Source of the DNA: Auraticoccus monumenti
GTDB taxonomy: Bacteria > Actinomycetota > Actinomycetes > Propionibacteriales > Propionibacteriaceae
Assembly (NCBI RefSeq): GCF_900101785.1
Contig: NZ_LT629688.1
Span: 1,178,001 to 1,242,000 of the forward strand
Direction of reading: 5' to 3'
DNA length: 64,000 bases
In this document: one piece after another, positions 16,191-37,067 of the stretch
Numbering within the stretch: the first letter of the stretch is position 1
Layout of the letters: each line of letters starts with the position of its first letter
The notes under the pieces: generated by a model
The model's input: only the letters and a program-made list of their open reading frames with translations
Databases searched by the model: none
What the model was told of the DNA's origin: nothing
Made by a program: the position numbers and the translations under genes

Positions 16191-17111
16191 TCAGCCCTTG
16201 ATGCCGCTGCTGGCGGCACCCTCGATGACGTAGCGCTGCACGAAGGAGTAGAGGATCAGCACGGGGACGCTCGCGATGGCGGCGCCGGCCATGATCACCG
16301 GGTAGTCGGTCGTGTAGGCGCCCTGCAGCTTGCTGAGCCCGACGGGCAGGGTCAGCCGCTCGGGGGAGAACAGCACGTAGATCGGCCAGACGAAGTCGTT
16401 CCAGTTGGCCAGGAAGGACAGCACGGCCAGGGTGACCAGGGCCGGGCGGGCGTTGGGCAGCACGATGGAGCGGAAGATCCGGAACGGGCCCGCCCCGTCG
16501 ATCCGGGCGCTCTCCTCCAGCTCCAGCGGCAGCGCCGCGAAGAACTGCCGCATGAAGAAGACCCCGAAGGCACCCGCTGCGCCGGGCACGATCAGCGCCC
16601 ACAGCGTGTCCAGCCAGCCGAGCCGGTTGAGCATCAGGAAGTTCGGCATCAGGAAGATGAAGCCCGGCACGAACAGCGTGGAGATGATCAGCCCGAACAG
16701 CAGCTTCTTGAAGGGGAACTCCATCCGGGCCAGCGCGTAGCCGGCCATCGAGGACACCAGCAGCACCAGCAGCGCGTGGGCGGTGGCGGCCACGAAGGAG
16801 TTCGCCGCCCAGAGCAGCACCGGTGAGGAGTCGTCGCCGAAGAACAGCGTGTTGAACGCGGCCAGGCTCGGCTCGGCCGGGAAGAACGTCGGCGGCACGG
16901 TGCGGCTCTCGACGTTGCTCTTGAAGGCGGTGAGCAGCATCCAGGCCAGCGGGCCGATGAAGACCAGCGTCAGCAGGCTCATCACCACCCAGAAGAGCAC
17001 CTTCCCCGGCAGCGGCCTGCGCCCCCGGCCCGGGGCCTGGCGCGGGCTGACCGGGCTGTCACCGGTGGTACCACCGGGCAGGCGCTCGGTGGTCTCGGAG
17101 GTCGTCGTCAT
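16191..17111 (-). CDS. Carbohydrate ABC transporter permease, MalG/AraQ type
   Basis: 306 residues, six membrane segments, with the ABC permease EAA loop at ESARIDGAGPFRIFRSIVLP, which contacts the ATPase. The hydrophilic N-terminal 35 residues are cytoplasmic. Partner of the MalF-type gene, whose stop overlaps its start by 4 bases. No ATPase gene is present in the operon; CUT1 importers in actinobacteria commonly borrow a shared MsmK/MsiK-type ATPase. Confidence 0.92.
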   Translation of the reverse strand: MTTTSETTERLPGGTTGDSPVSPRQAPGRGRRPLPGKVLFWVVMSLLTLVFIGPLAWMLLTAFKSNVESRTVPPTFFPAEPSLAAFNTLFFGDDSSPVLLWAANSFVAATAHALLVLLVSSMAGYALARMEFPFKKLLFGLIISTLFVPGFIFLMPNFLMLNRLGWLDTLWALIVPGAAGAFGVFFMRQFFAALPLELEESARIDGAGPFRIFRSIVLPNARPALVTLAVLSFLANWNDFVWPIYVLFSPERLTLPVGLSKLQGAYTTDYPVIMAGAAIASVPVLILYSFVQRYVIEGAASSGIKG

Positions 17112-18082
17112 TTCCGCTCCTTGAGCAGACGGAAGTTGATGATGGAGACCACGGCCAGGAACACCGCGAGCAGGTAGCTCATCGCCGCCGCCTGGCCCAT
17201 CCGGTACTGGCTGAGCCCGAGCTCGGTGATCACGATGATCGCGGTCCGGGTGGAGTCACCGGGCCCGCCCTGGGTGATCAGGTAGCTCTGGCCGAACATG
17301 TTGGCGCTGGCCAGCACGGTCATGGTGATGACGAAGACCAGCACGGGTCGCAGCCCCGGGACGGTGATGAAGCGGAACTGCTGCCAGGCGGAGGCCCCGT
17401 CCAGCGAGGCCGCCTCGTACTGCTCGACGCCGATGTCACCGAGCCCGGCGAGGTAGATGATCGCGTTGAAGCCGATCGTCCACCACACGGTGACCGCGAC
17501 CAGGGAGATCCAGGCCCAGGGCTGCCCGGTCGTCCACGGGATGTCCGAGGGCAGACCGAGCAGACCCAGCAGGCCGTTGACCGCCCCGAAGGACGGGTCC
17601 AGCAGGTAGCGCCACATCAGGCCGATCACCGCCACGCCCAGCACGTACGGGGCGAAGAAGACCGCGCGGAAGAAGGTGCGGCCGGGGAACTTGCGGTGCA
17701 GCAGCACCGCGAGCCCCAGCGGGATCACCACCAGGAACGGGACGCTGGCCACGGTGAAGATGGCCGTCGCCTGCATGCCGTTCCAGAACGGCTCGAACTG
17801 CACCGAGGCCGGGTCGAACAGGGCGGTGTAGTTGTCCAGGCCGACGAACGGCTTCCCCTCCAGCAGGAAGTCCCAGTCGTGCAGGCTGATCCACAGGCCG
17901 TAGACGGCCGGGACCGCCACGAACACGACGAAGAGGACCAGGTACGGCAGCAGGAAGGCGTAGGGGGTGATCTTGGACCCGTGCACGCCGCCGAAGCGCA
18001 TCGAGTCCGCGGGTCCCGATGCGCTGCGCCCGGGTGCCGTTCCCGGCACCGGGCGCAGCGCCCCGTCTGTGGTGGCGCTCAT
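17108..18082 (-). CDS. Carbohydrate ABC transporter permease, MalF/AraP type
   Basis: 324 residues with six membrane segments and the EAA loop YEAASLDGASAWQQFRFITVP. Forms the membrane channel with the MalG-type protein for a mono- or oligosaccharide, presumably arabinose-containing given the flanking GH51 and GH43 genes. It lies 4 bases after the binding-protein stop. Confidence 0.92.
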   Translation of the reverse strand: MSATTDGALRPVPGTAPGRSASGPADSMRFGGVHGSKITPYAFLLPYLVLFVVFVAVPAVYGLWISLHDWDFLLEGKPFVGLDNYTALFDPASVQFEPFWNGMQATAIFTVASVPFLVVIPLGLAVLLHRKFPGRTFFRAVFFAPYVLGVAVIGLMWRYLLDPSFGAVNGLLGLLGLPSDIPWTTGQPWAWISLVAVTVWWTIGFNAIIYLAGLGDIGVEQYEAASLDGASAWQQFRFITVPGLRPVLVFVITMTVLASANMFGQSYLITQGGPGDSTRTAIIVITELGLSQYRMGQAAAMSYLLAVFLAVVSIINFRLLKERK

Positions 18083-18086
18083 GGCC

Positions 18087-19433
18087 TCAGCCGTACTTCT
18101 TCGAGTTGGCCTCGAGGATCTTGGTGGCCCGCCCGGCGGCGTCGGAGAGCGCGGCCTGGGGGGTCTTGCTCCCCAGCACGGCCTCGTTGAGGGCCTTGTC
18201 CCACTCGGTCATGGCGTCACCGATGCCGGCCACCGGCGGCAGGAAGTGCAGCACGTCGACCTGCTGGGCGAGGGCGGACTGCTCGGGCAGCGCCTGGAAC
18301 TCCGCGGACTCGCGGACCGAGGTGCGGGCGGGCACCTGACCGGCCTTGGCCCACTCCAGGGACTGCTGGCTGATCCAGTTGAGGAAGACCCGCGCGGCCT
18401 GGCTCTTGTTCTCGTCGGGGGTCTTCATGGTGGGGAGCACGAACTGGTGCGAGCCCGCCCAGGCCGCCGGGGTGCCGCCGATGTTGGGCAGCGGTGCGAC
18501 GCCCCACTCGAGCTCCTCCTGCTCCTTGAGGGTGTTGACGTTCCAGATGCCGTTCCAGTTGAACGCGGTCTTGCCGTTCTGCAGGGCGATCGCGTCGGCG
18601 TCCTGGGCGATCTTGGACGGCGAGTGCCCGTCCTTGATCAGGTTCACGTACCAGGTCATGGCCTCCACGCCGGGGGCGTCGGCCCAGGTGACACCGGTGG
18701 CGTCGGGGCTGAACAGGTCGCCGCCGAACTGCCACAGCAGCGCCTGGACGGTCATCGAGCCGGTGAAGGGGAACGGGGTGGCCCAGTGCCCTTCGACGCC
18801 CTTGCTCTTCAGGGTGTCCAGCGCGGTGCCGTAGGACTCGGCGTCGGTCGGCGGGGCCTCGGGGTCCAGGCCGGCGTCCTCCATCACCTTCTTGTTGTAG
18901 AAGAAGCCGAGCGGGTGGACGTCCAGCGGGATGGCGTAGCGCTGCTCGCGCCACAGGCCGGCCTGCCAGGGCACCGGCGCGAAGTCGGCCTCGGACAGAC
19001 CGAGACCGGTGGCCACGTCGTCCAGCGGCTGGATGACCTTGCGGGCGGCGTTGGTGGCCACGGAGTCCACGTGCATGATCGCGATCTCGGGACCCTTGCC
19101 CGCGGTCACGGCACTCGGCAGCTTGGCGTAGTAGTCCGCCCACTGCATCGTGTTCATGGTGACCTTGATGTTCTCGTTCTCGGTCTGGAACTTCTCGACC
19201 AGCTTCTTCATGATCGGGCCGTCACCACCGGTGAAGCCGTTCCAGAACTGGAGGGTGACCGGGGGGCCGTCGTAGCCGCTGGTCCCGCCGTCACCGGTGG
19301 GGGCCTGGCTGCTGCCGGGCACGCCCGCCGAGCCGGCGCCGCCGCACGCGGCCAGACCCAGCGCGGCCGCTGCTCCCAGCCCGCCGGTGAGCAGGCCCCG
19401 TCGGGTGAGTGCGGACATCGTCGTCGGAGACAT
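18087..19433 (-). CDS. Sugar ABC transporter substrate-binding lipoprotein
   Basis: 448 residues of the extracellular solute-binding family 1. The signal has an RR pair (LTRRGLLTGGLG) and a lipobox ending at Cys of about 30 (LGLAACGG), suggesting Tat export and lipid anchoring. The mature protein opens with VTLQFWNGFTGGDG, typical of CUT1 sugar-binding proteins. The stop of the GH51 gene and this ATG overlap as TGATG, and GGAAGGAACCACTG precedes the start. Likely captures arabinosides released by the GH43 enzymes. Confidence 0.92.
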   Translation of the reverse strand: MSPTTMSALTRRGLLTGGLGAAAALGLAACGGAGSAGVPGSSQAPTGDGGTSGYDGPPVTLQFWNGFTGGDGPIMKKLVEKFQTENENIKVTMNTMQWADYYAKLPSAVTAGKGPEIAIMHVDSVATNAARKVIQPLDDVATGLGLSEADFAPVPWQAGLWREQRYAIPLDVHPLGFFYNKKVMEDAGLDPEAPPTDAESYGTALDTLKSKGVEGHWATPFPFTGSMTVQALLWQFGGDLFSPDATGVTWADAPGVEAMTWYVNLIKDGHSPSKIAQDADAIALQNGKTAFNWNGIWNVNTLKEQEELEWGVAPLPNIGGTPAAWAGSHQFVLPTMKTPDENKSQAARVFLNWISQQSLEWAKAGQVPARTSVRESAEFQALPEQSALAQQVDVLHFLPPVAGIGDAMTEWDKALNEAVLGSKTPQAALSDAAGRATKILEANSKKYG

Positions 19434-26243: not shown

Positions 26244-27440
26244 CTAGTGGCCGACGCGGTCGAGCAACCCGCGCTGGTGGAGGTTCCGGATGAGGGCACG
26301 CAGCCCGAACTCCCAGCGCGGGGCGGTCTCGGAGCGGGTGACGCGGTTCACCAGCGTGCCCAGCCGGGGGCTGGAGATGCGGACCACGTCCTCGAGGTGG
26401 TGGGTGAAGCCCATGCCGGGGTGGTCCCGGTCCTGGGTGGGGGAGAAGAGGGTGCCGGTGTAGAGCAGCACACCATCCGGGTACTGGTGCGCGTCCCCGA
26501 CGGTGTAGGCGGCCAGCTCGGCGACGTCGCGGGAGATCTGGCTCATGTCGCTCGTCCCGTCGAGGACGAAGCCGTCGTCGACACCGAGCACCTGCAGCCG
26601 CACCGCGGCGCCACGGACGTCGTCGAGGGTGAAGTCGTCGTCCAGCAGCCGCAGGAACGGTCCGGCCGCGGCGGAGGCGTTGTTGTCCTTCGCCCTGGGC
26701 AGCAGCAGCGCGGACCGGCCCTCGACGTCGCGGAGGTTGACGTCGTTGCCCAACGTCGCGCCCACGACCCGTCCGGTCGAGGTCACGGCCAGCGCCACCT
26801 CGGGCTCGGGGTTGTTCCAGCTCGACACCTCTGCCACCCCGACCTGCTGACCGCACCCCACCGCCGACAGCACCGGCGCCTTGGTGAACACCTCCGGGTC
26901 CGGGCCGAGCCCGACCTCGAGGTACTGCGACCACAGTCCACGCGACTGCAGGTCCGTCTTGAGCCGGGCCGCGTCCTCGCTGCCGGGACGCACCGCCGAG
27001 ACCTCGCGTCCGACGACCGCCTCCAGCTCACCACGCAGCCGGTCGGCCTGGGCGGGGTCGCCGCCGGCGCGCTCCTCGATCAGCCGCTCCATCAGCGAGC
27101 TGGCGAAGGTCACCCCGGCCGCCTTCAGCACCGACAGGTCGACCGGGGCCAGCAGCGTGGGTGACGCCGGATCGCCCGCGCCCTCGGCCAGCGAGGCGGC
27201 GAGCACGTCGGTCAGCGGCCACCCTCGCCCCGGCTCGGCCTGCCGCAGCGCAGCGACCGGGTCGGGCTGCTCGAGCAGGTCCGAGATGGTGGGGAAGCTC
27301 GCGGAGACGTCGACCAGCTCCTCACCGCGGACGGTGACGACGCAGGGTCCCGCGACCGCGGGGTCCAGCACCCGGCCCACCAGCGTGGCCCGGCCGACGT
27401 CGGTGGGAAGCAGGTCGGAGAGGTCGTCGAGGAGGTTCAT
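26244..27440 (-). CDS. Fumarylacetoacetate hydrolase (FAH) family enzyme
   Basis: 398 residues. The C-terminal half has the FAH fold: VGVAEVSSWNNPEPEVALAV (metal-binding Glu residues), GATLGNDVNLRDVEGRSALL, LGVDDGFVLDGTSDMSQISRD. This subgroup of about 390 residues includes sugar-acid enzymes such as 2-keto-3-deoxy-L-arabonate or -fuconate dehydratases/hydrolases; assignment within it is uncertain. It lies downstream of the RraA gene but beyond a strong terminator, so it probably has its own promoter. Start ATG at 27440. Confidence 0.8.
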   Translation of the reverse strand: MNLLDDLSDLLPTDVGRATLVGRVLDPAVAGPCVVTVRGEELVDVSASFPTISDLLEQPDPVAALRQAEPGRGWPLTDVLAASLAEGAGDPASPTLLAPVDLSVLKAAGVTFASSLMERLIEERAGGDPAQADRLRGELEAVVGREVSAVRPGSEDAARLKTDLQSRGLWSQYLEVGLGPDPEVFTKAPVLSAVGCGQQVGVAEVSSWNNPEPEVALAVTSTGRVVGATLGNDVNLRDVEGRSALLLPRAKDNNASAAAGPFLRLLDDDFTLDDVRGAAVRLQVLGVDDGFVLDGTSDMSQISRDVAELAAYTVGDAHQYPDGVLLYTGTLFSPTQDRDHPGMGFTHHLEDVVRISSPRLGTLVNRVTRSETAPRWEFGLRALIRNLHQRGLLDRVGH

Positions 27441-27618: not shown

Positions 27619-27653
27619 CCGGGCACGGACGCACGTTCGGCGTCCGTGCCCGG
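27619..27653 (-). terminator. Strong terminator of the catabolic operon
   Basis: CCGGGCACGGACGC, loop ACGTTCG, GCGTCCGTGCCCGG: a perfect 14-bp stem starting 10 bases past the RraA stop. It closes the long operon that begins at 36118. Confidence 0.8.
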
Positions 27654-27663
27654 CCGGGCCGGG

Positions 27664-28440
27664 TCAGACGTTCGCGTACCAGGCCTCGACGGCCTCGACG
27701 TCGGTGCTGGCGTCGCCGGGGCGACCGAGCTTGTCGTAGTGGCGCTTGCGGGCCCGCATGTCGCTCAGCAGCACCGCCCGGGCGTGGGTGGCCACCTCCA
27801 CCGCGACCTCGCGGGGCACCACGACCACCCCGTCGTCGTCGGCGCCCACGACGTCGCCGGGGTTGACCTGGGTGCCGCCGCAGGCGATCTGCGTCTGCGC
27901 CTCGACGGCCTCGATCCGCCCGGGGATGATGGTGCGGCCGCGACGGCGGGCCACCACCGGTGTGCCCTGGGCCTCGAGCTCGCCGGTGTCACGGGCGTAG
28001 CCGTCGGTGATGATCCCGACCGCGCCGCCGACGATCGTGCCCATGGCGTTCTCCGAGCCCCAGAAGCCGACCTCGGGGCCGCCGCCGGAGTCCATCACCA
28101 CCACGTGGCCGGGGGTCAGGTCGTTGGGGAGGCGCTCGGCCGGGTACTTCTCGAACCAGAGCCGGTGGGCCGCGACGACGTCCTCGGTGCTGGTCAGCTT
28201 CCACATCGGCTTGTTGGAGGGGACGCAGCGCAGGGTGGCGGCCTCGCCGAAGAACTTCATGCCCCGCCAGAGCGGACGCACGTCGTGGTTCATCAGACCG
28301 ATGTTGAAGTAGCCGATGCCGTCCATGGCGTCGACGACGTCCACCACCCGGAGGAACTTGTACAACGTCCCGAGCTGGTCCGGGTCCGCCTGGGTGTAGG
28401 GCAGCTCCGGGGCCTGCTGGACGGGCAGGGTGTGGGTCAT
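27664..28440 (-). CDS. RraA-family protein (aldolase-like, dimethylmenaquinone methyltransferase superfamily)
   Basis: 258 residues. Core motif MGTIVGGAVGIITDGYARD carries the Gly-rich loop and Arg-Asp pair that bind substrate and divalent metal in 4-hydroxy-2-oxoglutarate-type aldolases (HMG/CHA aldolase, LigK). GTPVVARRRGRT and PGDVVGADDDGVVVVP follow as in the family. An N-terminal extension of about 60 residues, including YTQADPDQLGTLYKFLRVVDVVDAMDGIG, precedes the fold. Likely cleaves a hydroxy-oxo-acid to pyruvate or oxaloacetate in this cluster. Last gene of the operon. Confidence 0.85.
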   Translation of the reverse strand: MTHTLPVQQAPELPYTQADPDQLGTLYKFLRVVDVVDAMDGIGYFNIGLMNHDVRPLWRGMKFFGEAATLRCVPSNKPMWKLTSTEDVVAAHRLWFEKYPAERLPNDLTPGHVVVMDSGGGPEVGFWGSENAMGTIVGGAVGIITDGYARDTGELEAQGTPVVARRRGRTIIPGRIEAVEAQTQIACGGTQVNPGDVVGADDDGVVVVPREVAVEVATHARAVLLSDMRARKRHYDKLGRPGDASTDVEAVEAWYANV

Positions 28441-28531
28441 GGTGTGATCGCTCCTCGGTTGTGGTTGTGCGGTCGGCCCGGGCGGCGGGTGCCGGCGGGA
28501 CGTGGGGGTGACGCGGGTGCGCGTCGGTGGG

Positions 28532-29044
28532 TCAGGCGGACCCGGCGTGTCGCCGGGCCAGCTCGACGTAGGTCTCGGCGTTGGTGACGAGGTGCTCGCG
28601 CTCGGGGTCGGTGAGCTCGCGGCGTACCCGGGCGGGCAGCCCGAGCACCAGTGAGCCCGACGGGATCTCGACGTCCTCGGCCACCACCGCGCCGGCGCCG
28701 ATGATGACGTCGTCGCCGATGCGGGCCCGGTTGAGCACGATCGCGCCCATCCCGACCAGCACCCGGTCGCCGACCGTGCAGTTGTGCAGGACGGCCCGGT
28801 GGCCGACGGTGACCTGGCGGCCGAGGCGGACCCCGAGCCCGGGGTCGGCGTGCAGCACGCAGCCGTCCTGGACGTTGCTCCGCGGCCCGACCACGATGTC
28901 CTCACCGTCGCCGCGCAGGACGGCGCCGAACCAGACCGAGGCGTGCTCGGCCAGGCGGACCCGCCCCACCAGCGAGGCGGTCGGCGCGACCCAGGCGGTG
29001 GGGTCCACCTCCGGGTGGTGGCCTTCGAACCCGTGCAGGCTCAC
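28532..29044 (-). CDS. Gamma carbonic anhydrase-like hexapeptide-repeat protein
   Basis: 170 residues of left-handed beta-helix repeats (VGRVRLAEHASVWFGAV; VGDRVLVGMGAIVLNRARIG; VAEDVEIPSGSLVLG). Three His in NVQDGCVLHADPG and VTVGHRAVLHNC occupy the metal positions of gamma carbonic anhydrases, PaaY and CaiE. PaaY-type members act as thioesterases that rescue CoA, which would fit the CoA genes here. The GTG at 29044 overlaps the amidohydrolase stop (GTGA); a GTG at 29053 is an alternative. Confidence 0.85.
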   Translation of the reverse strand: MSLHGFEGHHPEVDPTAWVAPTASLVGRVRLAEHASVWFGAVLRGDGEDIVVGPRSNVQDGCVLHADPGLGVRLGRQVTVGHRAVLHNCTVGDRVLVGMGAIVLNRARIGDDVIIGAGAVVAEDVEIPSGSLVLGLPARVRRELTDPEREHLVTNAETYVELARRHAGSA

Positions 29045-29922
29045 CGTGACCACCGCCCCAGGTCGTACCAGCGCGTCGCGGTCCCGCCGAGCACCTCGGC
29101 CCGGTCGTCGGCGTCGGGGACCACCCGCTCCAGCACGGCCACCTGGTCCCGCCACAGCGTGCGGTAGTCCGTGCCGAGCTCGGAGACCGGCCAGTTGCTG
29201 GCCAGCATGGTCCGCTCCGGGCCGAACGCCTCCAGCACGACGCCGGCGACCTCGTCCAGCTGCTCGGGCTGCCAGTCCCAGCGCGAGACCACGTCCAGCC
29301 CCACCGACAGCTTGATCGCCACCCCGGGGGCGTCGGCCAGCCGGGCGATGTTGTCCCGCCACGGCTGGGCGGGCGCGCCGTCCAGCGGCGGCCGTGCCAG
29401 GTGGTCCACCACGATCCGCAGCCCCGGCACCTGCTCGGCCAGCTGCACCACCTGGGCGCACTGGACGTCGTCGAGCGGGACCACGTCCCAGGACAGCCCG
29501 GCGTCGGCCAGCTCGGTGAAGAGCTCGACGACGTCGTCGCCGGCCAGCCAGTCCAGCGGCTCACGACCGACCAGGCAGCGGACCCCGACCAGACGGGGGA
29601 GGTCCATCCGGGTCCGCTCCCGCCGCGCGGCGTCCGGGTCGCGCAGCGGCAGCCAGCCGACGACCCCGCGCACCGGCTCCAGCCGGCTCCAGCGGGCCAG
29701 CCGGTCGTTCTCCTCCGGTCCGTCCTCGGACTCCACCAGCACGGTGCCGTCGATCCCGAGCTCGACGGTCATCGTCGCCAGGTCCTCGGGACGGAAGTCG
29801 CGCACCAGGGCGCCGTGCCCGGGTCCGCGCCAGGGCTGCTCGCTCTCCCCGGCCACCCAGAAGTGCTGGTGGGCGTCGATGGTGGTGGTCGCGGGCGTCG
29901 GGTCCGCGGGTGCGGCGGTCAT
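29041..29922 (-). CDS. Amidohydrolase_2 family hydrolase, fuconolactonase-like
   Basis: 293 residues, COG3618. Metal-binding IDAHQHFW at about 15-22, then LVESEDGPEENDRLARWS, VRCLVGREPLDWL, IVVDHLARP and MLASNWPVSELGTDY complete the TIM-barrel active site. Relatives hydrolyse L-fucono-, L-rhamnono- or pyrone-dicarboxylate lactones. In this operon it probably opens a sugar lactone. Overlaps both neighbours by 4 bases. Confidence 0.85.
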   Translation of the reverse strand: MTAAPADPTPATTTIDAHQHFWVAGESEQPWRGPGHGALVRDFRPEDLATMTVELGIDGTVLVESEDGPEENDRLARWSRLEPVRGVVGWLPLRDPDAARRERTRMDLPRLVGVRCLVGREPLDWLAGDDVVELFTELADAGLSWDVVPLDDVQCAQVVQLAEQVPGLRIVVDHLARPPLDGAPAQPWRDNIARLADAPGVAIKLSVGLDVVSRWDWQPEQLDEVAGVVLEAFGPERTMLASNWPVSELGTDYRTLWRDQVAVLERVVPDADDRAEVLGGTATRWYDLGRWSR

Positions 29923-30725
29923 CGTCCCTCCCAGGAGGCCGGTCGTCGGGCGAGGAAGGCCTGGACGCCCTCGGCGAAGTCGGCGCTGCCGTAGCAGGCC
30001 CCCACCAGGTCGTCGCAGTCCGCCTCGGGGTCGTGGTCCAGTCGTCGGCTCGTCTGCTTCAACGCCCGGACGCTCAGCGGCGCACCGCCGGCGATCGTCC
30101 GGGCCAGCTCGGCGGCCACCGGACGCGGGTCGCTGCCGGCGGGGAGCAGCCGCGTGATGAACCCGCTGGGGGCCAGCTCGGCGGCGCTCACCAGGTCCGC
30201 GGCCAGCAGCAGCTGGTCGGTGCGGGCGGCCCCGAGACGGCGGCGCACCAACTCGACGGCGGAGGCGTCGATGCAGTTGCCCAGGGTCCGCGACACCGGG
30301 GCGCCGAACTGGACGTCCTCGGCGGCGACCACCAGGTCGCAGGCCGCGGCCAGCACCAGCCCGGCGCCGACCGCCAGCCCGGGCACCGCCGCGACCACCG
30401 GGACCGGCACCGCCTGCAGCGCCTCCAGCACCGCCCGCACCCGCTGCTCGTAGCGCAGCCCGGCATCGGCGTCGAAGCCGGGGAACTGGGCGATGTCGGT
30501 GCCGGCGGCGAAGGCGCGGTCCCCGGTCGAGGTCAGCACCACCGCCCGCACCCGCGGGTCACCGGCGACGTCCCGGGCGTGCTGCTCCAGCTCGTCGTAC
30601 ATCCGCCAGGTCAGGGCGTTGAGCTTGCGCGGGTGGTCCAGCCGGAGCGTGAGGACCGCCCCGTCCAGGGAGCTGCGCACCCCGTCGACGGCGTCCTCCC
30701 CGCCGACGGGCTCCTGGTCAGCCAC
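29919..30725 (-). CDS. Enoyl-CoA hydratase/isomerase family protein
   Basis: 268 residues with the crotonase fold: LRLDHPRKLNALTWRMYDEL, the oxyanion-hole segments FAAGTDIAQF and PGLAVGAGLVLAAACD, and a C-terminal helix bundle. I cannot place both catalytic glutamates of classical hydratases, so the reaction (hydration, isomerisation, thioester hydrolysis or C-C cleavage) is open. GTG at 30725 overlaps the CoA-transferase stop by 8 bases, implying coupling. Confidence 0.85.
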   Translation of the reverse strand: MADQEPVGGEDAVDGVRSSLDGAVLTLRLDHPRKLNALTWRMYDELEQHARDVAGDPRVRAVVLTSTGDRAFAAGTDIAQFPGFDADAGLRYEQRVRAVLEALQAVPVPVVAAVPGLAVGAGLVLAAACDLVVAAEDVQFGAPVSRTLGNCIDASAVELVRRRLGAARTDQLLLAADLVSAAELAPSGFITRLLPAGSDPRPVAAELARTIAGGAPLSVRALKQTSRRLDHDPEADCDDLVGACYGSADFAEGVQAFLARRPASWEGR

Positions 30726-31920
30726 GGACGGCCCCCTCGGCGAGCGACCCGGTGCCCGCCCCGGCCGCGGCCAGCAGGTCGTCGTGCTCCCCGAGCAGCG
30801 GGGCCGGACGGCGGACCGTGGCCGGGGTGCCGGAGAGCCGGACCGGGGAGGCCAGCACCTTGACCGTGCCCTCCACCGGGTGCTCGTAGCTGGTGACCGC
30901 ACCGCGCTCGGCGACGTGGGGGTCGGAGTCCAGCACGTAGGAGTAGTCCCGGATCGGTCCGGCCGGGACGCCGATCTCCAGCAGGGCCTCCACCCACTCG
31001 TCCACGGTCCGGGAGGAGAACAGCGGCGTGAGCTCGGCGACCAGCTCGTCGCGGTGGCGCATCCGCAGGGTGTTGGTGCTGTAGCGCGCGTCCTGCACCA
31101 GCTCCGGCACTCCCAGCACCTCGCACAGCCGGGACCACAGGCGCTCGTTGTTGGCGCCCACCGTCAGGTAGCCGTCGCTGGCCCGGAACGCCTGGTACGG
31201 GGCGGACATCCGGTTCGCCGACCCCAGCGCCGCCGGCGCCTCGCCGGTCGCCCAGTACTCGGTGGACTCCCACACCGACAGCGCCAGCGCGGACTCGAAC
31301 AGCGACACCTCCAGGTACTGCCCCTCCCCGGTGGCCAGCCGGGCCACGTAGGCGGTGAGGATGCCGAAGGCGGTGAACATGCCCGCCCCCAGGTCGGCCA
31401 CCGGCAGCCCGCACTTGACCGGGTCGCCGCCGGGCTCGCCGGTGATGCTCATCACCCCCGACATGCCCTGGGCGATCAGGTCGTACCCGGGGCGACGGGC
31501 GTACGGACCGGTCTGGCCGAAGCCGGAGATGCTGGCGTAGATCAGCGCCGGGTTGTGCTGCTTGAGGGTCTCGTAGTCGATGCCCAGCCGCGTCGTGACG
31601 CCCGGCCGGAAGTTCTCCACCACCACGTCGGCCTCGCCCACCATGGCGTAGAACCGCTCCCGCTGTGCCTCGTCCTTCAGGTCCAGCCGGACGCTGCGCT
31701 TGTTGCGGTTGAGGGCCAGGAAGGCCCGGGAGTCCTCCCCCCGGACGGCGTAGCCCCAGGAGGTGCGGGTCTGGTCCCCGCCGTCGGGGTTCTCGATCTT
31801 GACGACGTCGGCGCCCATGTCGGCCAGCATCATCGTGCAGTACGGGCCGGACATCACCTGGGTCAGGTCGAGCACCCGCATGCCGCTCAGGGCGCCGTCG
31901 GGCAGGTCGGACAAGGTCAT
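30718..31920 (-). CDS. Class III CoA-transferase (CaiB/BaiF/Frc family)
   Basis: 400 residues. Family segments: GMRVLDLTQVMSGPYCTMML, ADMGADVVKIENPDGGD, VRLDLKDEAQRERFY, YASISGFGQTGPYARRPGYDL. The catalytic Asp lies in CGLPVADLGAGMFTAF, where the aspartyl-CoA intermediate forms. It moves CoA from a donor acyl-CoA to a carboxylic acid. Start ATG at 31920. A hairpin separates it from the upstream binding-protein gene. Confidence 0.9.
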   Translation of the reverse strand: MTLSDLPDGALSGMRVLDLTQVMSGPYCTMMLADMGADVVKIENPDGGDQTRTSWGYAVRGEDSRAFLALNRNKRSVRLDLKDEAQRERFYAMVGEADVVVENFRPGVTTRLGIDYETLKQHNPALIYASISGFGQTGPYARRPGYDLIAQGMSGVMSITGEPGGDPVKCGLPVADLGAGMFTAFGILTAYVARLATGEGQYLEVSLFESALALSVWESTEYWATGEAPAALGSANRMSAPYQAFRASDGYLTVGANNERLWSRLCEVLGVPELVQDARYSTNTLRMRHRDELVAELTPLFSSRTVDEWVEALLEIGVPAGPIRDYSYVLDSDPHVAERGAVTSYEHPVEGTVKVLASPVRLSGTPATVRRPAPLLGEHDDLLAAAGAGTGSLAEGAVRG

Positions 31921-31947
31921 TCGGGCTCTCCTCGCGAAGGGGTTCGG

Positions 31948-31982
31948 TCCGGGCGGGCGGACGGTCGGGCCGCCCGCCCGGA
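31948..31982 (-). terminator. Intra-operon hairpin after the binding-protein gene
   Basis: TCCGGGCGGGCGG, loop ACGGTCGGG, CCGCCCGCCCGGA: a perfect 13-bp stem between the binding-protein stop (31997) and the CoA-transferase start. It may protect the transporter mRNA or attenuate transcription into the enzyme genes. Confidence 0.6.
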
Positions 31983-31996
31983 CGTCGACGGTGGGC

Positions 31997-33325
31997 TCAG
32001 CCGAGGCTGGCGTTGGTCTCGGTGAAGAAGGCGTCGACCGCCTCTTCCAGGGTCAGCCGTCCGAACGCGACCTCGTTGTAGTTGCGCGTGAAGGCCTGCT
32101 GGAACACCGCGTTGAAGCCGGGCGGGTAGTTCACCTTGGGCGGGTTGTCCTCGCTGATGGCCCGGTACTGCTCGAGCTCGTCGCGCTTGAGGTCGGGCAG
32201 CTCGGAGTCCTCGGCGGTCAGGGCGTCCAGCACCGCGGTGTTCGTGGGGGCGCCGTTGTCGGCGGCGAAGGTCACCCCGGCCTCGACGTCGTTGGTGAAG
32301 AAGTCGATGAACGCGGCCGCGGTGGGGACGTTCTCGCAGTTGGTGGAGATGCCGAAGCCGGAGGCCACCAGGATGTTGCCGATCCCGGCGGGTCCGTCGG
32401 GGTAGCGGGCGGCCTGGAGCTGTCCGGCGTCACGGCCCTCGAGGGTCTGCTGGGCCACGTAGAGGGAGTTGCCCGGGAGCACCCCGACCATCAACTGCCC
32501 GGTCGCCAGGTAGCCCTGGTCGGCCCCGGGTGGCTCCTCGGCGGACATGTCCGGAGGCAGGGCGACGCCCTCCTCCTGCAGCTTCAGCCAGGTGCCCCAG
32601 TACTCCTTGAGCTGGTCCTCGGTGAAGCCCAGCTTGCCCTCGGCGTCGAAGACCTCGATGCCCTGGCCCACGGCCCAGGCGTAGAAGGCGTTCTGCTCCT
32701 CGCCGCCGGCCGCCACCGCGTAGGTGCCCTCGGGCAGACCCTCCTGGGCGCTGCGCACGTACTCGAAGAACTGCTCCCAGTCCCAGCTCTCCGGAGGGGC
32801 GCCCGCGCCGGCCTCCTCGGCCAGGGTGGTGTTGATCATCAGGGCGTCCCAGGCGATGCCGTAGGGGATGAAGTACAGCTTGCCGTCGCTGCCCCGGCCA
32901 CCGTCGAGGACGGCGGCGGGGATCATGCTGGTGTCGATGGCCCCGGAGGCCACCATGTCGTCCAGCGGCTGCAGGGTCTGGCGCTTCACGTAGTCGTTGA
33001 CCTGGCGGTCCTGCATCTGCACCACGCAGGGGAGCGACCGGCTGGAGGCCTGCACGTTCAGCCGGTTGAAGTACTGCGCGTAGTCGGCGGACTGGGTCTC
33101 GGTGGTCACCTCGGGGTGGGCCTCGTTGAACTGCTCGATGACGGCGTTGGTCTTGGCGTTGCGGGACTCACCACCCCACCAGGCGACCTGGAGCGCGCCG
33201 CTGACCTCGCCCTGGCCGTCCGAGCTTTCCGCGGTTCCCTGGTTGAGGCACGCCGTGCTGGTGAGCGCGACGCCGAGCAGCAGCGCGACCCCGGTGAGGG
33301 TTCGGCGGCGACGTGGCTGGGTCAT
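31997..33325 (-). CDS. CUT1-type ABC substrate-binding lipoprotein of the second cluster
   Basis: 442 residues. Signal with lipobox (ALTSTACLNQ, Cys at about 26). Mature protein begins ALQVAWWGGESRNAKTNAVI, a family 1 sugar-binding protein. It supplies the two permeases transcribed just before it. The ligand is unknown; the enzymes downstream suggest a sugar acid, lactone or glycoside with a carboxyl group. ATG at 33325 is preceded by AAAGGACCTCCG. Confidence 0.9.
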   Translation of the reverse strand: MTQPRRRRTLTGVALLLGVALTSTACLNQGTAESSDGQGEVSGALQVAWWGGESRNAKTNAVIEQFNEAHPEVTTETQSADYAQYFNRLNVQASSRSLPCVVQMQDRQVNDYVKRQTLQPLDDMVASGAIDTSMIPAAVLDGGRGSDGKLYFIPYGIAWDALMINTTLAEEAGAGAPPESWDWEQFFEYVRSAQEGLPEGTYAVAAGGEEQNAFYAWAVGQGIEVFDAEGKLGFTEDQLKEYWGTWLKLQEEGVALPPDMSAEEPPGADQGYLATGQLMVGVLPGNSLYVAQQTLEGRDAGQLQAARYPDGPAGIGNILVASGFGISTNCENVPTAAAFIDFFTNDVEAGVTFAADNGAPTNTAVLDALTAEDSELPDLKRDELEQYRAISEDNPPKVNYPPGFNAVFQQAFTRNYNEVAFGRLTLEEAVDAFFTETNASLG

Positions 33326-33381
33326 GACGGAGGTCCTTTCGTCGAGGCGGCGTCGGTGCCGCCAGGTCTGGGTGGTGGTGC

Positions 33382-34302
33382 TCACTTGAGGCCGGTCGTG
33401 GCGATGCCCTCGACCAGCAGGCGTTGGGAGGCGATGAAGAAGCCGACGATGGGGGCCAGGGAGAGGGTGGCCATCGCGAAGAGGGTCCCGTAGGTGCTCT
33501 GGCCGGTCTGGTCGAGGAACGCGTTCAGCCCCAGCGAGACGGTCCAGAGATCGGAGCCGGGCAGGTACAGCAGCGGTCCCAGCAGGTCGTTCCAGGCCCA
33601 CACGAAGGTGAACATCGCGGTGGTGCCGATCGCCGGGAGCGACATCGGCATGATGATCCGCCAGAAGATGCCCCAGTGCCCGCAGCCGTCGATTCGGGCC
33701 GACTCGTCCAGCGACTTCGGCAGGGTGCGGATGAACTGCACCATCAGGAAGATGAAGAAGGCGTCGACGCCGAAGAAGTGCGGGACGGTCAGGGGCAGGT
33801 AGGTGTTCACCCAGCCCATCTGGTTGAAGATGATGTACTTCGGGATCAGCGTGACGTGCTGGGGCAGCAGCATGGTGGCGATCACCAGGCCGAACAGCAC
33901 CCGCTTGAAGGGGAACTCCAGCCGGGCGAAGGCGTAGGCGGTCAGCGAGCAGGCGAACAGGTTGCCCAGGATCTGACCGATCGTGATGATCGCGGAGTTG
34001 ACGAAGTAGCGGCTGAAGTTGAGGTTGCCCACCGACCAGCCGTCGACGTAGTTCTGCACCGTGTAGGTGTCGGAGAACAGGCTCAGGCCGGCGAAGGTCT
34101 GGTTGCCGGGCCGGAACGAGGCCCCGACCATCCACAGCACCGGGTAGAGCATCACCGCCAGGAAGCTGAGCAGCACGGCGTGCTTGATGATGCCCCGCAG
34201 CACCCGGTTGCCGGCGGGGCGCTGGGTGCGGGCGTCCCAGGGGCGTGGGGACCGGCCCGGGCGGACGCTGTCCGGCTGGGCGGGCGCGGTGGTCGTCGTC
34301 AT
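33382..34302 (-). CDS. Carbohydrate ABC transporter permease, MalG type
   Basis: 306 residues, six membrane segments, EAA loop DESARIDGCGHWGIFWRIIMP. Cytoplasmic N-terminal 35 residues are Pro/Arg-rich. Start overlaps the upstream permease stop by 4 bases. Only about a third of residues appear alike to the permease at 16191, so this is a distinct system. Confidence 0.92.
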   Translation of the reverse strand: MTTTTAPAQPDSVRPGRSPRPWDARTQRPAGNRVLRGIIKHAVLLSFLAVMLYPVLWMVGASFRPGNQTFAGLSLFSDTYTVQNYVDGWSVGNLNFSRYFVNSAIITIGQILGNLFACSLTAYAFARLEFPFKRVLFGLVIATMLLPQHVTLIPKYIIFNQMGWVNTYLPLTVPHFFGVDAFFIFLMVQFIRTLPKSLDESARIDGCGHWGIFWRIIMPMSLPAIGTTAMFTFVWAWNDLLGPLLYLPGSDLWTVSLGLNAFLDQTGQSTYGTLFAMATLSLAPIVGFFIASQRLLVEGIATTGLK

Positions 34303-35252
34303 GATTCGTCTCCGTAGTGGACCCAGTAGCGGGAGGAGCGGAAGAACACCGCGGTGACCACGGCGAGCGCGATCAGCAGCAGCCAGGCCATCGCCGAGGC
34401 GTAGCCCATCTGGAGCTGGGTGAAGCCGCGCTCGTAGAGGTAGAGGGTGTAGAAGAGGGTGGAGTCGACCGGCCCGCCGGTGCCCCCGCTGACGACGTAG
34501 GCGCCGGTGAAGGACTGGAAGGCGTTGATGGTGCCCATCAGCACGTTGAAGAACACCAGCGGCGTCATCAGCGGCAGCGTGATGGAGAAGAAGCGGCGCA
34601 CCTTGCTGGCACCGTCGACCTCGGCGGCCTCGAGCAGCTCCCGCGGGACCTGCCGCAGACCGGCGAGGAAGATGATCATGGTCGAGCCGAAGGCCCACAG
34701 GTTGAGGGTGATGATCGTGCCGAGGGCGCGGTCGGGGTCACCCACCCAGCTGCCCACCCCCTCGATGCCGAACAGCGCCGCGACGGAGTTGACCAGCCCG
34801 TCGGCCCCGAACACCTGGCGCCACAGGGCGGCGATCGCGACGCTGGCCCCCATCAGCGAGGGCAGGTAGAACAGGGCGCGGTAGCCGGTCAGGAACCTCA
34901 GCCGGCTGTTCAGCAGCAGGGCGACCAGCATGGCCACCACCTGCAGCAGCGGCACGAAGACCACCACGTAGGTGAGGGTGACGGTGACCGACTTCCAGAA
35001 CCGGGGGTCGTCACCCATGGCGGCGTAGTTGGCCAGGCCCACCCACTCCGGGCTGCTGAGCAGGTCGTAGCGGGTGAAGGAGAGGTAGAGCGAGTAGAGC
35101 ATCGGGCCGAAGGTGAACAGGACCATCCCGAGGAGCCAGGGGAGCAGGAAGAAGAAGGCGGCCAGGGTCTGGCCGCGTCCGCCGCCCCCGCTGCGCCGTC
35201 GCGGTGTCGTGGGTGGGGCCAGGACCGGCTCGACGGCCGTGGTCAGCGTCAT
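34299..35252 (-). CDS. Carbohydrate ABC transporter permease, MalF type
   Basis: 317 residues with six membrane segments and the EAA loop LEAAEVDGASKVRRFFSITLP. Channel partner of the next gene. Overlaps the oxidoreductase stop by 4 bases (ATGA), placing uptake and catabolism in one transcript. No ATPase gene is nearby. Confidence 0.92.
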   Translation of the reverse strand: MTLTTAVEPVLAPPTTPRRRSGGGGRGQTLAAFFFLLPWLLGMVLFTFGPMLYSLYLSFTRYDLLSSPEWVGLANYAAMGDDPRFWKSVTVTLTYVVVFVPLLQVVAMLVALLLNSRLRFLTGYRALFYLPSLMGASVAIAALWRQVFGADGLVNSVAALFGIEGVGSWVGDPDRALGTIITLNLWAFGSTMIIFLAGLRQVPRELLEAAEVDGASKVRRFFSITLPLMTPLVFFNVLMGTINAFQSFTGAYVVSGGTGGPVDSTLFYTLYLYERGFTQLQMGYASAMAWLLLIALAVVTAVFFRSSRYWVHYGDES

Positions 35253-36118
35253 CGGGTGCCTCCGTCGGTGGTGGTCTTGTGGTCGGCGTGCCGGCGGATC
35301 GCGCCGGGGAGCAGCTCGGCGGTGGTGCGCGCGGTCGGCAGCTCGAGGTCGTGGTCGCTGGCCACCCGGAGGGTCTCGGCGAGGTCCTTGACCCAGGGCC
35401 GGCCCTCCTCGGCCACGTCGCGCTCGTCGTAGTCGCGGCTGAGCCGGTCGTAGAAGCCCCAGGTCTCCACCGCCCAGGAGCGCGCCGTCCCGCCGGCCAG
35501 CGCCTCCAGCAGCACCGACTCCTCGACGCCGACCCGCCCGGCGAGGTCGACGGCCTCGTAGAGCGCGCCGAGCCCGGTGAAGAGGACGTACTGGTTGCAC
35601 AGCTTCACGACCGCGGCGGTGCCGGCGGGGCCGGTGACCACGGTGGAGCGGGCCAGTGCCGCGCAGTGCTCCCGCGCCCGCTCGACGTCGGCGTCGGCGC
35701 CGCCGAGCAGCACCAGCAGCTCACCGGCCTCGGCCGCGTCGGCGCCCCCACTGACCGGCGCCTCCACCAGCCCGATCCCGTGCTCGGCGCACAGCCGGGC
35801 CATCTCCTGCGCCGTACCGGGGGAGACCGTGCTGCTCAGCAGCACCAGACCGCCCTCGCCCATCCTGGCCGCGAGGCCGTCCGGCCCCTTCAGCACCGAG
35901 CGGACGGCGTCGTCGTCGGGGACGACCACCCACACCACGTCGCTGGCCGCGGCCAGGGAGGGGAGGTCGTCGGCGGGTGTGCAGCCGTCCTCGGCAGCCC
36001 GCTCCAGGGCGGCTGCGTCGGTGTCGTGGACCAGCACGGACCCTGGACGGGTGGCCAGCCGTCGAGCCATCGCGGCGCCCAGGTTGCCCAGGCCCACCAC
36101 GGCTGTGGTCGTCGTCAC
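35249..36118 (-). CDS. NAD(P)-dependent 3-hydroxyisobutyrate dehydrogenase-family oxidoreductase
   Basis: 289 residues. Rossmann motif VVGLGNLGAAMARRL at the N-terminus, substrate loop EAPVSGGADAAEAGEL, and catalytic Lys in AAVVKLCNQYVLF. The family oxidises or reduces beta-hydroxy acids (3-hydroxyisobutyrate, tartronate semialdehyde, threonate). First gene of the operon, from a GTG at 36118 preceded by GAGGAGGACG. The substrate is presumably a hydroxy acid from the imported compound. Confidence 0.87.
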   Translation of the reverse strand: MTTTTAVVGLGNLGAAMARRLATRPGSVLVHDTDAAALERAAEDGCTPADDLPSLAAASDVVWVVVPDDDAVRSVLKGPDGLAARMGEGGLVLLSSTVSPGTAQEMARLCAEHGIGLVEAPVSGGADAAEAGELLVLLGGADADVERAREHCAALARSTVVTGPAGTAAVVKLCNQYVLFTGLGALYEAVDLAGRVGVEESVLLEALAGGTARSWAVETWGFYDRLSRDYDERDVAEEGRPWVKDLAETLRVASDHDLELPTARTTAELLPGAIRRHADHKTTTDGGTR

Positions 36119-36160
36119 GAGCGTCCTCCTCGACTTCTCGTCCTGCGTCGGTGCAGTGGC

Positions 36161-36193
36161 TACTGTCTACAATAGTTAAAAGTCAGTAGTCAA
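36161..36193. promoter_or_regulatory. Promoter and GntR/FCD operator of the catabolic operon
   Basis: Minus-strand promoter TTGACT (36188-36193), 18-base gap, TAGACA (36164-36169). An inverted pair TACTG (36161-36165) and CAGTA (36184-36188) encloses AT-rich TCTACAATAGTTAAAAGT, the most AT-rich spot in the region. It fits a site for the divergent GntR regulator covering the promoter. Confidence 0.6.
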
Positions 36194-36320: not shown

Positions 36321-37067
36321 ATGAGCACCGCCCCCGGTCCGGACAGCATCCAGGCCCCAAGTCTGGTCCAGCTCGCCGCCGAGTCGCTGCGCAAGATGAT
36401 CCTGGCCGGGGAGTACGCGCCGGGCGAGCGGCTGGCCGAGGAGCGGCTCACCGAGCGGCTGCAGATCAGCCGGCCGCCGCTGCGGGAGGCCATGCGGCTG
36501 CTGGAGAACGAGGGCTTCATCGTCACCCAGCCCCGCAAGGGCTCGCGCGTCACCACGCTGACCGACCGGGACGTCCACGAGATCCTCACGCTGCGCTCGG
36601 CGCTGGAGCGGCTGGCCTTCGAGCTCGGGGTCCCGGTGCCTGACCCCGCGCTGCTGGAGGCGCCCCGGGCTGCGGTCGCGGAGATGGAGGACTGCGCCCG
36701 CCGCGAGGACCGCGGTGGGCTGGTGCAGGCGGGCTACCGCTTCCACCGGGCCCTGGTGGGGATAGCCGACCACCGCCGGCTCTCGGAGAGCTACGCCTCC
36801 ATCCAGCGCCAGCAGCTGCTGTGCATGGCCCGGAACCTGGTGGTCCGGGAGGCCTACTACGAGGACCTGGAGCACCACGCGGCCCGGCACCGGGCGCTGC
36901 TGGAGAGCGTCGAGTCCGGCGACCGCGAGGCCGCGCTGGCCGAGCTGGCCGCCCACGGCGAGCAGTCCTTCGCCTCGGTGGCCCTGCCCCCGGAGCTCTA
37001 CCGCAGCTCCTTCGGCCGCACCCCCGACCGGCAGCTCCCAGGGGTGTCAGGCGGCGGCGGGATGTGA
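36321..37067 (+). CDS. GntR-family regulator, FadR/FCD subgroup
   Basis: 248 residues. Winged helix-turn-helix (about 15-85: GERLAEERLTERLQISRPPL, REAMRLLENEGFI) and an all-helical FCD effector domain (about 95-225) with His residues in YRFHRALVG and EHHAARHRALL positioned for metal binding. Such regulators sense carboxylates or sugar acids. ATG at 36321 follows GAGGAG. Divergent from the catabolic operon, so probably its repressor; the ligand may be its substrate or an intermediate. Confidence 0.92.
   Translation: MSTAPGPDSIQAPSLVQLAAESLRKMILAGEYAPGERLAEERLTERLQISRPPLREAMRLLENEGFIVTQPRKGSRVTTLTDRDVHEILTLRSALERLAFELGVPVPDPALLEAPRAAVAEMEDCARREDRGGLVQAGYRFHRALVGIADHRRLSESYASIQRQQLLCMARNLVVREAYYEDLEHHAARHRALLESVESGDREAALAELAAHGEQSFASVALPPELYRSSFGRTPDRQLPGVSGGGGM

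Follow-up and report, generated by a model that had tools for sequence, protein, structure and literature searches.

A sugar-type importer joined to a class III CoA-transferase and a crotonase-fold protein without the hydratase glutamates in a conserved operon of Auraticoccus monumenti

What could be the task of a sugar-type importer that shares one operon with a CoA-transferase, a crotonase-fold protein, a lactonase-like amidohydrolase and an RraA-type aldolase? The question is raised by a locus in Auraticoccus monumenti, the genome of which is a single contig of 4.46 Mb (NZ_LT629688.1), and the window analysed here is the stretch of 64,000 nucleotides from position 1,178,001 to 1,242,000 of the forward strand, with coordinates counted from its first nucleotide. 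The original prediction placed nine minus-strand genes at 27664–36118 behind a divergent regulator, and proposed that an imported carboxylated sugar or lactone has its acid form activated with CoA, hydrated and split. All ten genes are open frames at the coordinates listed in Table 1, and the families agree with the first assignment, with matches to NAD_binding_2/11, BPD_transp_1 (twice), SBP_bac_1, CoA_transf_3, ECH_1, Amidohydro_2, Hexapep, RraA-like and GntR plus FCD. The importer and the lactonase-like, CoA-transferase and RraA genes do form one conserved and locally regulated unit; the hydration step had to be given up, since the crotonase-fold protein lacks both hydratase glutamates in all 23 rows from 22 operon loci. 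We infer an operon for non-phosphorylative breakdown of a sugar acid that contains a CoA module, and for the operon as a whole we tentatively favour a self-contained catabolic unit for an acidic sugar or lactone, in which a CoA loop would replace the sugar-acid dehydratase.

The genes are kept together in relatives, with gene borders and neighbour counts there taken from a home-made gene caller. In an order-wide sample of 245 genomes, split by identity of the CoA-transferase, 13 matches (the window included) have at least 65% identity, and the values then drop to 51%. The importer, dehydrogenase, transferase and crotonase are all present in the 12 other high-identity contexts, and the regulator, amidohydrolase and RraA in 11 of them, the contig of the twelfth (G207) breaking off within the crotonase gene. 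Eight loci at 51% or below, chosen not exactly in order of rank, were also read, and none of these has a match to the dehydrogenase, importer, amidohydrolase or RraA. A family search gave matches in 7 of 197 genomes, and the operon is present in the three new ones that were read (G647, G673 and G676); a search of the class gave 3 of 394, the window and G448 among them. The operon is absent from G448, with a CoA-transferase of 61% identity, and a locus of Streptomyces nanshensis (L057, 62%) shows no importer, dehydrogenase, amidohydrolase or RraA in a stretch with only 3 kb on one side, and the rule that at least 65% means operon can therefore not be extended to lower identity.

The distribution of the operon is sporadic. 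Named carriers are Phytoactinopolyspora halotolerans, Streptomyces triticirhizae, Cellulomonas aerilata and Devosia geojensis, and two Microvirga plasmids have the regulator, dehydrogenase, amidohydrolase, RraA, permeases, transferase and crotonase; the copy in M. ossetica is annotated also with a sugar binding protein and UgpC, and that in M. lotononidis is from an unannotated record in which the binding protein was unmatched by tblastn. Two of the loci, L053 and L159, are from one genome. The identity of MalF is 54–88% in the actinobacterial and Devosia copies and 37–38% in Microvirga. The original prediction had made itself dependent on a gene order shared with relatives, and the order is conserved. 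It is hardly credible that the importer and dehydrogenase are one unit and the CoA genes another, placed side by side by chance: alphaproteobacterial CoA genes do occur also without a MalFG importer, but the same set, mostly with the same order and overlaps, is found across genera and families, and the set recurs in Devosia and Microvirga.

In those actinobacterial copies that are complete and were read, the regulator orthologue is oriented divergently to the operon. A site over the promoter had been predicted, and a palindrome of 16 bp, CTACTGTCTACAATAG, is located there with a core that all seven promoter groups share; the consensus CTATTGTnnACAATAG is built from k-mers common to all seven. 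When ten genomes were scanned with up to two mismatches allowed, 24 sites were found in all, and the operon promoter carries one in each of the ten, which is expected because the pattern was derived from those promoters. The informative part is that exact copies are found in six genomes, exactly one in each and always at the operon, with none away from it in the ten genomes. The remaining 14 sites are spread over five genomes (one with one mismatch and 13 with two), to be compared with 10 for a reversed control pattern, and the window genome has one such site, with two mismatches. A wider regulon was considered and set aside on these counts, and the predicted site looks like the mark of a regulon private to this operon.

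Most of the genes had been said to overlap by 4–8 bases, and this applies to four of the eight junctions. From the HIBADH-type dehydrogenase to RraA the distances are -4, -4, +56, +76, -8, -4, -13 and +91 bases, and the 13-base overlap shrinks to 4 if an alternative GTG start is used. The terminator of 14 bp predicted at the end of the operon is present as an exact inverted repeat, and the 61-base stretch around it folds with -43.5 kcal/mol against a shuffle mean of -28.4, but there is no T-run, and the repeat is for that reason unlisted by a T-run terminator scan; the terminator and promoter scan of the region was uninformative. The span first proposed is slightly short, as the FAH gene was missed. 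In the window this gene is separated from RraA by 223 bases. In a relative of the same genus (L032) its overlap with RraA is 4 bases, and an overlapping D-2-hydroxyacid dehydrogenase comes next; in S. triticirhizae (L054) it shares 4 bases with the gamma-carbonic-anhydrase-like gene, followed by a dehydrogenase of the same family; and in L053 and L055 a shorter FAH and a D-2-hydroxyacid dehydrogenase adjoin the regulator. Because FAH is joined to or overlaps operon genes in relatives it is counted in the unit and in the pathway. The D-2-hydroxyacid dehydrogenase is not beside FAH in the window; the best match to the L032 enzyme in the own genome (55%) is located at about 2.85 Mb, beside an FAH paralogue of 60% identity and an aldehyde dehydrogenase, and this group is part of another sugar-type cluster with a KDPG-type aldolase (L165:8892-12471).

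The CoA-transferase is a class III (CaiB/BaiF) enzyme by its CoA_transf_3 match and by the catalytic aspartate, which had been recognized at first sight: Asp176 aligns with Asp169 of CaiB, and an Asp is found there in 20 of 20 aligned rows. Its best solved relative is the succinate-hydroxymethylglutarate CoA-transferase 9br7 (E=6.6e-87). The crotonase fold of the adjacent gene product is indicated by PF00378 and by a predicted model (pLDDT 93.2) with Z scores of 29–32 to crotonases and no preference for any crotonase function, and the protein scores 269.5 bits against PRK06144, the cut-off being 272. Val is found at both positions where 5zai and CaiD have Glu; the two hydratase glutamates are E144 and E164 in rat enzyme numbering. 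In an alignment of 67 rows, E, D or Q occurs at either column in none of the 23 operon rows and in none of the 56 rows with a T(L/I/V)GN motif, and Glu is found at the first column in L050, L094 and L169, which do not carry the motif. Since the catalytic glutamates are missing, the crotonase-fold protein probably carries out a CoA-thioester reaction other than hydration. Price et al. (PMC9007349) argued from the loss of the equivalent residues that a 'hydratase' had another role.

One candidate for that reaction is the decarboxylation of a malonyl-type CoA thioester, as by ScpB (methylmalonyl-CoA decarboxylase, MMCD) of E. coli. The transferase would then activate a beta-carboxy acid or 1,1-dicarboxylate made by the operon, and the crotonase would remove CO2. 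We consider this less likely than the CoA loop, but a serious alternative. Decarboxylation of the MMCD type requires an oxyanion hole and no base, and the absence of both glutamates is consistent with it, as are the BLASTP scores of the window crotonase (91 bits to ScpB against 84 to CaiD), the annotated scpB-scpC layout with a CoA-transferase beside a crotonase decarboxylase, the dicarboxylates for which relatives of the transferase are named (hydroxymethylglutarate, glutarate, mesaconate and oxalate), and the loci where the transferase/crotonase pair is nearly alone with carboxylate-type transporters. ScpB has Glu at the first position, however, and is without the conserved PIARTLGNC segment, and such a route offers no obvious place for RraA, FAH and the lactonase-like gene.

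These three genes point in another direction. The amidohydrolase appears to be a relative, and no equivalog, of L-fucono-1,5-lactonase, with 119 bits to that model against a cut-off of 400 and a match to 4dlf (E=1.4e-18). Residues 109–231 of RraA match 82–205 of the HMG/CHA aldolase 3noj, and R150-D151, an Arg-Asp pair invariant in 21 aligned rows, fits the register of this match. In the P. putida HMG/CHA aldolase the active-site pair is given as Arg-123/Asp-124 (PMC5065237), and by its Arg-Asp pair the protein of the window is a putative class II pyruvate aldolase of the RraA/HMG-CHA type. FAH has its strongest match to 9kkt (E=1.4e-118), which bears the family name only, and among its relatives in the structure set 2q18 alone is named for a function, as a 2-keto-3-deoxy-D-arabinonate dehydratase (E=5.6e-20 over 190 residues). 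In L043:6191-7653, L055:16335-17910 and L163:16398-17926 a second RraA adjoins a second or relocated crotonase, which suggests that RraA and a crotonase may act together. In G673 (L162:11495-13159) the amidohydrolase and RraA are one continuous frame of 554 aa, possibly a fusion, a read-through or a sequence error; it was rejected as Rosetta-stone evidence because the ribosome-binding site and ATG of RraA are kept inside the frame.

The relations to YesO (see below), fuconolactonase, RraA, FlDet and FAH are thus a pointer to a 2-keto-3-deoxy sugar acid, and as none of the operon genes has a Pfam match to an aldonate or aldarate dehydratase family, the transferase and the crotonase would fill the dehydratase place. 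We infer the substrate class, the order of the steps, the crotonase reaction and the direction of the dehydrogenase as follows. MalF/MalG and the YesO-like binding protein would take up an acidic sugar or lactone, which most likely resembles an aldarate or aldonate and perhaps arrives as a short glycoside, and the amidohydrolase would open a lactone. The class III transferase would move CoA from an acyl-CoA onto the acid, and the crotonase would transform the acyl-CoA, after which CoA would be handed back, a loop in place of the dehydratase. The 2-keto-3-deoxy acid would then be handled by RraA, as a pyruvate-type aldolase or as a dehydratase/decarboxylase, together with FAH where present, and the semialdehyde could be reduced by the HIBADH-type enzyme, as by GarR in the galactarate route of E. 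coli. The gamma-carbonic-anhydrase/PaaY-like protein is presumably accessory, perhaps a thioesterase; it scores 162 bits of 250 for gamma-carbonic anhydrase, 132.5 of 319.6 for PaaY and 108 for CaiE, all below the cut-offs, and its His-rich segments are conserved in five rows, with no such gene found in the stretches of nine of nine f2 and four of four g2 copies. The dehydrogenase gives 140.9 bits with the HIBADH and 133.7 with the GarR-type model (GarR cut-off 397), both below the cut-offs, and the alphaproteobacterial ones in L056 and L066 match tartronate semialdehyde reductase best, with 204–207 against 150–159 bits for HIBADH, also below the cut-off.

The nature of the substrate is hinted at by the importer. 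Both in sequence (E=3.7e-31) and in structure the binding protein is matched best by YesO, with Z scores of 42.1–42.6 at 24% identity, followed by 4ovj with 40.3, all other rows being at 37.2 or below. According to its title the structure 5z6b is YesO with a rhamnogalacturonan trisaccharide, and such a trisaccharide includes a uronic acid. Glycosidase-like genes, with no obvious signal peptide by eye, adjoin some copies of the operon: a DUF5060/apiosidase-like hydrolase stands alongside in Devosia, and the copy in Cellulomonas has a weak GH5 match. An alpha-L-rhamnosidase of GH78 type is found near six of nine f2 copies (L034:13045-19036 and five further ones; one representative scanned), where it accompanies an opposite-strand importer that adjoins the operon. 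The apiosidase-like neighbour prompted the thought of an apiose route, which was dropped as the literature search found no link between apiose and a CoA-transferase; an ascorbate or 2-carboxy-lyxonate route was also considered and rejected, and no such operon was named by the literature search. The copy in M. ossetica is followed by a mandelate-racemase-type enolase (Pfam), an L-idonate 5-dehydrogenase and an SDR (annotation) at L173:11803-15701. Elsewhere in the window, at 16191-19418, there is a second importer of MalF/MalG type with 32–34% identity to that of the operon, beside a lipoprotein-like frame and followed by a frame of 547 aa and a LacI-like regulator (labels by eye).

The CoA-transferase/crotonase pair is itself a separate and much wider module, a fact that the original prediction missed. 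It is found in many phyla with varied transporters and a mostly glutamate-less crotonase (L067, L174, L175 and about 30 further loci). The 50 pair loci include six that were hand-picked regardless of motif, and both L033 and L052, which are one contig of 5,984 bases and are also both counted in the 56 motif rows; transporter types in unannotated loci were partly assigned by eye. In Polynucleobacter (L067, neighbours by clustering) and on plasmids of a Comamonadaceae member and a Paraburkholderia the pair has little beside it except a transporter or substrate-binding gene, with a regulator on the two plasmids, and two steps alone may suffice there. A GlcD/YdiJ-like oxidase is found in 7 and a glyoxylate-transaminase-like gene in 6 of the 50 loci and in none of the operon copies, the representatives being below the cut-offs and the counts lacking a background rate, and an iron-dependent alcohol dehydrogenase (Fe-ADH) with an aldehyde dehydrogenase occurs near the pair in 3 of the 50 and on a Sphingobium plasmid. 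Such neighbours could use glycolate, glyoxylate or glycolaldehyde, and would fit retro-aldol cleavage by the crotonase, in which an aldonyl- or tetronyl-CoA (a 2,3-dihydroxyacyl-CoA) yields glycolyl-CoA and an aldehyde of shorter chain. This is unlikely for the operon, where the GlcD-like and transaminase-like genes are missing from all stretches and RraA and FAH would require another source of 2-keto-3-deoxy acid. In Devosia subaequoris (L060:6131-9829) the pair adjoins a cyanuric acid amidohydrolase, which passes its family cut-off, and an amidase.

Several observations weigh against a CoA loop in place of the dehydratase. A pair nearly isolated beside a transporter suggests that its product enters central metabolism directly, which would fit a lyase or decarboxylase better, and together with the GlcD-like and transaminase-like neighbours the isolated pairs favour decarboxylation or retro-aldol cleavage, both of which we regard as serious rivals. 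The absence of both acid/base glutamates speaks also against a simple dehydration by the crotonase. The crotonase gene is displaced in G160, where it follows RraA instead of standing between transferase and amidohydrolase, and in G647, where it and a second RraA are found beyond the regulator. Four alphaproteobacterial clusters (L063, L065, L066 and L170, the last on a Roseinatronobacter plasmid) have the CoA-transferase, crotonase, dehydrogenase and amidohydrolase together, close to genes for transporters of TRAP or another carboxylate type, and no match to RraA or the importer, and RraA is therefore not obligatory there. The dehydrogenases of the window and of two actinobacterial copies cannot be distinguished among HIBADH, threonate dehydrogenase and tartronate semialdehyde reductase, and there is no uronate or aldose dehydrogenase among the operon genes.

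Table 1. Features of the operon and its flanks, in window coordinates
Feature	Position	Strand	Evidence
GntR/FCD-type transcriptional regulator, divergent	36321..37067	+	PF00392 + PF07729
Operator-like palindrome CTACTGTCTACAATAG (predicted)	36160..36175		core k-mer common to promoter groups
Beta-hydroxyacid dehydrogenase (HIBADH / tartronate-semialdehyde-reductase superfamily)	35249..36118	-	PF03446, PF14833
ABC importer permease, MalF type	34299..35252	-	PF00528
ABC importer permease, MalG type	33382..34302	-	PF00528; UgpE/MalG models below cut-off
Solute-binding lipoprotein, YesO nearest solved structures	31997..33325	-	PF01547
Class III CoA-transferase, catalytic Asp176	30718..31920	-	PF02515, 453 bits
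Crotonase-fold protein without both hydratase glutamates	29919..30725	-	PF00378
Amidohydro_2 protein, fuconolactonase-like	29041..29922	-	PF04909
Gamma-carbonic-anhydrase/PaaY/CaiE-like hexapeptide protein	28532..29053	-	PF00132
RraA-family protein, long form, invariant Arg150-Asp151	27664..28440	-	PF03737
14-bp perfect inverted repeat, loop 7, terminator-like	27619..27653	-	position + fold z -5.1
FAH-family protein, probably related to 2-keto-3-deoxypentonate dehydratase	26244..27440	-	9kkt, 2q18 matches

The families are individually known, but the combination, the regulator site and the spread are undescribed in the open-access literature searched. The original prediction knew of no described route with this set, and none was found in open-access full text, where some of the searches were for single parts; such a route may have been described elsewhere. 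A few dehydratase families are considered the basis of the non-phosphorylative routes for sugar acids. An operon that has enzymes of lactonase, RraA and FAH type and a CoA-transferase/crotonase pair at the dehydratase place, and that is kept from Actinomycetota to Devosia and the Microvirga plasmids, would show that the dehydratase task can be met by another chemistry, and it would point to a role for a large subfamily of glutamate-less crotonases (PRK06144-like), which carry the annotation enoyl-CoA hydratase, and for their partner transferases of the CaiB/BaiF kind. It is possible, with considerable doubt, that a class III transferase and a glutamate-less crotonase replace the EDD/IlvD, enolase or GarD-type dehydratase with the CoA recycled, and that the same pair is plugged into carboxylate pathways across phyla; the two-gene CoA module would then be a general device for breaking down acids that has gone unrecognised, and the crotonase chemistry would be new.

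Among known systems, scpABC of E. coli also has a crotonase-fold enzyme adjoining a CoA-transferase by annotation, a likeness that counts also for the CoA loop favoured here, but the crotonase is only 26% identical to ScpB and the operon has no mutase; ScpC falls in a CoA-transferase class other than class III. The likeness of the CoA-transferase, crotonase and gamma-carbonic-anhydrase-like protein to the CaiB/CaiD/CaiE trio was overlooked at first and is distant on test. In caiABCDE of E. coli a CoA-transferase, a crotonase-fold protein and a hexapeptide protein are grouped in the same way, and the hexapeptide protein is 36% identical to CaiE, so one might imagine that a beta-hydroxy acid is reversibly dehydrated or epimerised. 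A carnitine-like system is very unlikely and was rejected on direct comparison: identities are in the range 27–36%, with 27% to CaiB and 29% to CaiD, CaiD has both Glu where the window crotonase has neither, and CaiA and CaiC have no counterpart by family, there being no ligase and no acyl-CoA dehydrogenase among the operon genes. The CaiE-like gene is moreover missing from most copies, and the operon adds a sugar-type importer, the lactonase-like protein and RraA.

For the rhamnogalacturonan-binding protein YesO of Bacillus subtilis the likeness is at the level of the binding protein. FlDet of Flavobacterium sp. UMI-01, a member of the RraA family likened here by family and length (237 residues against 258), acts in acidic-sugar breakdown as a 2-keto-3-deoxy-D-glucarate dehydratase/decarboxylase, with alpha-ketoglutaric semialdehyde as product; section 7 of PMC8563752, which describes it, mentions no CoA step. 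The garD-garL-garR genes of E. coli (with garP) combine, like the operon, an aldolase giving a semialdehyde with a beta-hydroxyacid dehydrogenase, and the HIBADH-type enzyme of the window is 28% (27.9%) identical to GarR over 265 residues. In the gar route the semialdehyde from the aldolase step is then reduced by GarR. A one-to-one galactarate operon was rejected, as GarD and GarL have no counterpart by a meaningful BLASTP match; compared with the gar route, the operon has RraA for GarL, the CoA-transferase and crotonase for the dehydratase, and an ABC importer for GarP.

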